The notes below the pieces were generated by a model. That model worked only from the letters and a program-made list of their open reading frames with translations, searched no databases and was not told where the DNA came from. Position numbers and translations under genes: made by a program. Of a DNA stretch of 55,870 nucleotides, positions 47,122-47,433 are shown piece after piece (position 1 is the stretch's first letter; the number at the start of each line of letters is the position of its first letter). This stretch comes from Patescibacteria group bacterium (lineage in GTDB: Bacteria; Patescibacteriota; Microgenomatia; UBA10105; UBA927), in contig JAHJMO010000017.1 of NCBI GenBank assembly GCA_018821245.1, positions 1-55,870 on the forward strand. Direction: 5' to 3'.

Positions 47122-47305
47122 AGCCGAAGGTGGGAATTGAACCCACGACCTATGCTTTAGCCGTCCGTTACTCTCACCTAGAGCCTCTTGTCAGAATCGA
47201 ACTGACATCTACGGTTTACGATACCGCTGCTCTGCCATTGAGCTAAAGAGGCGCAGGCTCTGACGGGCGGGCGAAAGCGTTGCTCTGCCTCTGAGCTACT
47301 TCGGC
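47122..47305 (-). pseudogene. Split tRNA-Thr(CGU)-like gene interrupted in the anticodon loop by a 112-bp insert
   Basis: 5' half (47305-47272) GCCGAAGTAGCTCAGAGGCAGAGCAACGCTTTCG; 3' half (47159-47122) TAAAGCATAGGTCGTGGGTTCAATTCCCACCTTCGGCT; joining gives a complete 72-nt tRNA with loop TTCGTAA. Confidence 0.75.
47182..47252 (-). tRNA. tRNA-Thr(CGT), nested inside the split tRNA
   Basis: GCCTCTT...AAGAGGC acceptor; GCGGT-ATCGTAA-ACCGT anticodon arm; GTCAG-TTCGATT-CTGAC T arm. Confidence 0.9.
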
Positions 47306-47361
47306 GCAGTAATCATTGGGGAACCCATTTTCCCATCTTGCCCTCCATAAATTGCTTTTTG

Positions 47362-47433
47362 AGCGGCGGAGGGGAATTGAACCCCCGACCTTCTGCTTGG
47401 GAAGCAGACATTCTACCTCTGAACTACCGCCGC
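47362..47433 (-). tRNA. tRNA-Gly(CCC)
   Basis: GCGGCGG...CCGCCGC acceptor; TCTGC-TTCCCAA-GCAGA anticodon arm. Confidence 0.94.

Follow-up and report, generated by a model that had tools for sequence, protein, structure and literature searches.

The window analysed here, a stretch of 55,870 nucleotides (contig JAHJMO010000017.1), belongs to a genome of the class Microgenomatia (Patescibacteria/CPR), referred to below as G000. On its minus strand, a complete tRNA-Thr(CGU) gene lies within the anticodon loop of another tRNA-Thr(CGU) gene. Read along the minus strand, the locus consists of the following features:

47361..47433, minus strand: neighbouring tRNA-Gly(CCC) gene, which adjoins the Thr-CGU gene in relatives and serves as a synteny anchor
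47272..47305, minus strand: 5' half of the outer tRNA-Thr(CGU), 34 nt, comprising the acceptor 5' strand, the D arm, the anticodon stem 5' strand and the loop bases TTCG up to base 35
47160..47271, minus strand: insert of 112 bp between tRNA bases 35 and 36
47262..47271, minus strand: 5' palindrome arm of the insert, CCCGCCCGTC, a degenerate form of CCYGCCYGCC (consensus from related nests)
47181..47252, minus strand: inner, intact tRNA-Thr(CGU) (ARAGORN; Rfam RF00005, 66.6 bits; genome tRNA set)
47160..47169, minus strand: 3' palindrome arm of the insert, AACGGACGGC, a strongly degenerate form of GGCRGGCRGG
47122..47159, minus strand: 3' half of the outer tRNA-Thr(CGU), 38 nt, comprising the loop bases TAA, the anticodon stem 3' strand (with a C-A mismatch), the T arm, the acceptor 3' strand and the discriminator

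The inner gene is called by both ARAGORN and Rfam, whereas the outer one is invisible to both. When the two outer halves are joined in silico, ARAGORN reports a tRNA-Thr with the anticodon CGU. All pairs of its acceptor (7/7), T (5/5) and D (4/4) stems are intact, the anticodon stem has a single C-A mismatch, and the cut can be placed in only one position, 35^36. Thus, the arrangement described in the initial annotation, made from the sequence of the window, proved exact in coordinates and sequence, including the strand, the 34- and 38-nt halves, the 112-bp insert, the restoration of a CGU tRNA upon removal of the insert, the mismatch and the point of interruption. The partial complementarity of the insert ends, also pointed out there, corresponds to worn palindrome arms, the pristine forms of which (CCYGCCYGCC / GGCRGGCRGG) occur in other nests. 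The view that the insert is too short for a typical group I intron likewise stands, since 72 of its 112 nt are a tRNA and Rfam at the gathering threshold reports tRNAs alone. RNAfold predicts that the 184-nt nest region forms two stacked cloverleafs, one atop the anticodon arm of the other. Apart from the nest, searches for palindromes in the window gave weak matches only.

Nearly all anticodons found in G000 are represented by a single gene, and for Thr-CGU the inner gene is the sole intact one in the genome tRNA set. A genome of the same family, G010, carries an uninterrupted tRNA that is identical to the joined outer tRNA at 67 of 72 positions. Upstream of this intact gene is an apparent tRNA-Gly 3' end, and the gene downstream of it also adjoins the Thr-CGU gene in relatives; the Gly-Thr gene order of the window locus is common to relatives. 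As a separate observation, tRNA-Asn(GUU) is absent from the 45 tRNAs found in G000, due either to an assembly gap (the genome is 97% complete) or to an interrupted gene; the corresponding loop pattern gave only three candidate matches.

Comparable nests were found in dozens of Patescibacteria, involving tRNAs for Thr, Val, Arg, Ile, Met, Ala and Trp, and some of them are triple. A search of relatives with the window nest retrieved the same nest (Y[X]) in G180 and different nests in several other genomes. Scanning 374 genomes of the class for two D arms spaced closer than a tRNA length revealed many further nests with Val, Arg, Ile, Met and Thr tRNAs. A stricter pattern applied to one genome from each of 84,980 species produced 50 records, nearly all from Patescibacteria, including Levy-, Roizman-, Gottesman-, Woyke-, Ames-, Shapiro-, Kerfeld- and Portnoybacteria, among other groups. 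Three nests (L141 and L148, labelled Ignavibacteriales; L154, Flammeovirgaceae) come from records assigned to other phyla, and these may represent either mis-binned CPR contigs or true spread. With the strict pattern, no nests were found in viral contigs. An automatic parser accepted 55 nested loci from Microgenomatia and other Patescibacteria, and further ones were recognized by eye. Among the triple nests, L094 (G079:C5) consists of Thr in Thr in Thr, whereas in L229 (G180:C36) a third tRNA harbours the Y[X] nest itself in its D arm. In L034 (G026:C39) the two tRNA types of the window are nested in reversed order, with the 3' half of a third tRNA on the outside. In L212 (G174:C19), the content of a Thr outer half starts Thr-like, ends Gly-like and has no ARAGORN call, possibly representing a recombined nest.

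The insert in most nests has the same plan, namely, a 10-nt arm, a whole tRNA gene and another 10-nt arm, and resides either in the anticodon loop or in the D stem. There are two versions of the pristine arms, 5' CCTGCCCGCC with 3' GGCAGGCGGG and 5' CCCGCCTGCC with 3' GGCGGGCAGG, both of which are common to nests of unrelated genomes; the arms of the window, CCCGCCCGTC and AACGGACGGC, are worn copies of these. Neither version is a perfect palindrome. When folded, pristine arms have one T-G and one C-A position or, alternatively, form either of two 6-bp helices that exclude each other and are offset by 4 nt. A second family of inserts, with arms TCCCAGCA...TGCGGGATCCCGTACAT / ATGGTACNGGGA, is present in G026 and G091, and a third, with an arm starting GTTTGCC, in G079. 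In two loci of the second family, L022 (G091) and L034 (G026), a two-hairpin build, TCCCAGCA...TGCGGGA-TCCCGTACAT [tRNA] ATGGTACNGGGA, is conserved. Palindromes with the same arm order and no tRNA also exist (L007, L059, L090). Among the collected loci, there were no standalone full 10+10 arm palindromes with mixed Y/R order, while shorter ones were present. Palindromes without a tRNA were also seen in the D arm or the variable region of outer tRNAs (L032, L089, L097, L110 and L117). The genome of the window has a possible second nest (C21:19395-19466; L220, L248), in which CCTGCCCGCC and a remnant resembling a D arm, GCGGATTAGTAGA, precede tRNA-Met(CAU); the 3' arm and the 3' half are unrecognisable.

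The insertion site is constant for each isoacceptor. In the anticodon loop it is 33^34, 34^35, 35^36 or 37^38: Thr (CGU, UGU), Met, Ile-UAU and Arg-UCU tRNAs are cut at 35^36, Val and Arg-CCU at 37^38, and Arg-UCG at 33^34. The additional site in the D stem is GGNAGA^GC. For the anticodon-loop nests, we rebuilt the outer anticodon from both halves and compared it with the inner one. The two agree in 45 of the 46 readable cases, whereas 20,000 shuffles yielded 7.4 agreements on average and never more than 17. Even in the sole mismatch, L093, the outer tRNA still reads Thr. The D-stem nests in which the outer anticodon is uncut and agrees with the inner one are L118 (Val-GAC), L221 (Arg-CCU) and L230 (Thr-CGU). 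A search of 380 genomes for inserts that was blind to their content gave the same picture, as all four matches in real tRNA anticodon loops contained a tRNA of the same isoacceptor. Despite the shared anticodon, inner and outer sequences are mostly 0.6-0.8 identical and differ in their acceptor stems. The explanation we prefer is that the match arises from selection for viability, and not only from target recognition: because there is one gene per anticodon, the breaking of a tRNA gene would be tolerable only when the cassette responsible provides that tRNA itself. Recognition of tRNA genes presumably also matters, because cassettes are hardly seen between genes.

Filled and empty versions of the same site are seen at the Val-CAC locus. 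G019, G020 and G021 have an intact gene of the GGGCGCA type, whereas in the congeners G017 and G007 the orthologous gene is cut at 37^38 by the arms and a different Val-CAC tRNA. The identity of the locus is backed by the same conserved upstream gene. The inner Val-CAC tRNAs of G017 and G007 are identical at 73 of 73 positions. By contrast, in the outer tRNA of both genomes a palindrome replaces part of the D and anticodon stems, and the outer tRNA of G007 additionally has an indel in the D stem and 68 bp inserted in the T arm. Because the inner tRNA is kept while the outer one gains insertions and indels, we consider the outer gene to be a decaying relic and the inner gene its replacement. 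In other members of the family (G011, G008 and G013), further Val-CAC types occupy the same locus next to the same upstream gene. G023 has yet another Val-CAC type; its upstream gene does not match and the locus is unconfirmed. Across nests, all stems are fully paired in 26 of 46 outer tRNAs compared to 43 of 52 inner ones (Fisher p = 0.007), with badly decayed outer tRNAs being under-counted because the parser requires recognisable outer halves. Outer decay shows no more than a trend with the age of the arms (p = 0.08). The 26 outer tRNAs that are still fully paired are the counterpoint, and could reflect recent insertion or some retained function. The filled and empty Val-CAC sites, the decay of the outer genes, their more defective stems and the position of the inner gene as the only intact Thr-CGU gene of G000 all support one of the two possibilities raised in the initial annotation, namely, that a destroyed outer gene gave way to an inner one of the same identity.

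As for mobility, in L126 and L168 the arms and the inner tRNA are 94-96% identical, the outer tRNAs differ more and the flanks are unrelated. Similarly, the Y[X] nest shared by G000 and G180 has unrelated flanks in the two genomes. As judged from these sequence comparisons, the arms and the tRNA probably move jointly as a single mobile unit; it is on these two pairs that the argument for mobility rests, because no cassette was seen outside tRNA genes. Since about 26 of the 31 tRNAs preceded by an arm lie within another tRNA gene (three of these with a partial or rearranged outer gene), insertion seems to be aimed at tRNA genes. We considered the Y1/RAYT transposase as a candidate mover. A Y1 transposase (Y1_Tnp) is encoded in 15 of 16 nest-bearing genomes and in 69 of 94 genomes of the class (p = 0.11), which is no significant excess over the class background. 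Of eight Y1 loci read, one (L253) gave a match in the arm scan, namely, a single palindrome, CCCGCC..GGCGGG, which lies at position 2601 and thus some 0.8 kb away from the Y1 match. No transposase or recombinase could be tied to the arms.

Taken together, the window nest is probably the product of in-place tRNA replacement by a palindrome-flanked cassette. In this scenario, a cassette composed of a complete tRNA gene between two 10-nt arms would have entered the resident tRNA-Thr(CGU) gene at its anticodon loop and destroyed this gene, and the tRNA-Thr(CGU) of the cassette would have taken over its job. The outer halves would then be a relic decaying through point mutation and further insertions. 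More generally, such cassettes would strike patescibacterial tRNA genes in the anticodon loop or the D stem. They would be retained where the tRNA that they bring reads the codon served by the broken gene, with repeated rounds of insertion giving rise to triple nests. The insertion itself would depend on an enzyme that acts on the palindrome in trans. It is conceivable, and we propose this tentatively, that the cassettes represent a new class of minimal selfish elements made of a palindrome and one tRNA gene and inserting into the gene of their own isoacceptor. Perhaps by supplying the function it destroys, such an element becomes at once indispensable, spreads between Patescibacteria and drives serial in-place replacement.

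Among the alternatives, a two-step origin is unlikely, though the least so. According to it, a tRNA-less palindrome breaks a tRNA gene, its tip is cut as DNA, and a fragment with a functional tRNA is captured there and fixed by selection, so that no mobile tRNA cassette exists. The location of the inner tRNA exactly at the palindrome tip and the tRNA-less palindromes of the same arm order found nearby (L007, L059, L090) are in line with this possibility. However, the captured pieces are almost exactly of tRNA length, and the closely similar arm and inner tRNA pairs of L126 and L168 are set in unrelated flanks. Furthermore, in 374 genomes no arm-only insert was found in an otherwise intact tRNA anticodon loop, the two matches obtained not being tRNAs. 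The same null result bears on the other possibility of the initial annotation, a small novel intron carrying a tRNA, which we regard as decidedly improbable. Under this reading, the inner tRNA would be excised and the outer one spliced, so that both are made, with the palindrome arms holding the outer halves for cutting and ligation. Its appeal lies in the sites, as the anticodon loop and the D stem are also positions of archaeal introns, in the many fully paired outer tRNAs and in the stacked cloverleafs predicted for the window nest. Nevertheless, the RtcB ligase (PF01139) is missing from 14 of 16 nest-bearing genomes, G000 included, and splicing cannot mend outer tRNAs that have palindromes in the D stem, the 68-bp T-arm insertion or a lost half. 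In addition, the intron leaves the isoacceptor match without a reason, and G000 does not need the outer tRNA.

If nests arose within tandem tRNA duplicates, by unequal recombination or by template switching, the same isoacceptor would naturally end up inside and outside, and a degenerate tandem Thr copy is indeed present in G025 (L005). The low identity between inner and outer tRNAs with their different acceptor stems, the palindromic arms at both junctions in most nests, the lack of chimeric acceptor stems and the constancy of the site for each isoacceptor make this origin very improbable. Finally, nearly all of the nests come from draft or metagenome assemblies, which brings to mind an artefact. 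The same structure with site-specific junctions is nevertheless found in long contigs, and the congeners G017 and G007 are interrupted at one locus. Because nests recur in dozens of independent assemblies, chance or misassembly can be dismissed, and the probability of an artefact is negligible.

How does the proposed cassette compare with known systems? Rickettsia palindromic elements (RPE), REP and MITE-like repeats are likewise short, palindromic, presumably non-autonomous pieces of DNA within genes. The recurrence of a palindrome at many loci, typical of these repeats, is also seen here, in the form of two arm versions and tRNA-less palindromes of the same kind. Unlike these repeats, nest inserts have a whole tRNA gene at their tip, enter the gene of the same isoacceptor and take the place of the gene that they break, and their pristine arms always pair with the T-G and C-A positions described above. 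Integrative elements and prophages with attachment sites in tRNA genes also target these genes, frequently in the anticodon or the T arm, and leave a working tRNA. Nest inserts differ from them in being only about 110 bp long, in having no integrase and no duplicated att core (in the window, TTCG on one side of the 112-bp insert and TAA on the other), and in that the restored tRNA is a separate whole gene in the insert and does not come about by the rebuilding of a 3' end. Archaeal bulge-helix-bulge introns interrupt the anticodon loop or other arms of tRNAs, and a helix joins their ends; the motif has two 3-nt bulges and a 4-bp helix at the splice sites. By contrast, the hosts of the nests are bacteria that mostly lack RtcB, the inserts contain tRNA genes, and the outer tRNAs decay, to the point that those of G007 and G017 appear from their sequence to be non-functional relics even after splicing. 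Group I introns of bacterial tRNAs share the position in the anticodon loop. They possess a conserved catalytic core (P3-P9) and are at least about 200 nt long, whereas the nest insert has about 40 nt beyond its tRNA, which hold no such core, and no group I intron was detected by Rfam in the window.

We found no description of nested tRNA genes in the literature searched, which included few subscription papers. Searches on tRNA introns in CPR and on palindromic elements in tRNA or RNA genes yielded nothing describing nests. Those on insertion into tRNA genes returned only papers on casposons, on an archaeal tyrosine recombinase and on unrelated subjects, none of which appeared to concern nests, and a further search led to papers on Rickettsia and giant viruses only. 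The introns mentioned in a Microgenomates genome paper are rRNA introns only. Our results thus suggest that nests are an undescribed way for tRNA genes to invade and replace their own kind. What the initial annotation, confined to one stretch of DNA, could not see is that such nests are widespread, that many isoacceptors are involved and that the palindrome arms recur. There is also a practical consequence for annotation, as the tRNA finders used here overlook the outer relic and report the inner gene alone.

Change in tRNA genes is generally ascribed to point mutation, duplication, loss and transfer. In the nests, a tRNA gene has apparently been replaced in place by a relative with the same anticodon, and this has happened repeatedly, for several isoacceptors and in a large part of the bacterial tree. 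In-place replacement would explain why one syntenic tRNA locus, such as Val-CAC, has differing sequences in related genomes, and would define a kind of insert that survives because it carries the very function it breaks.
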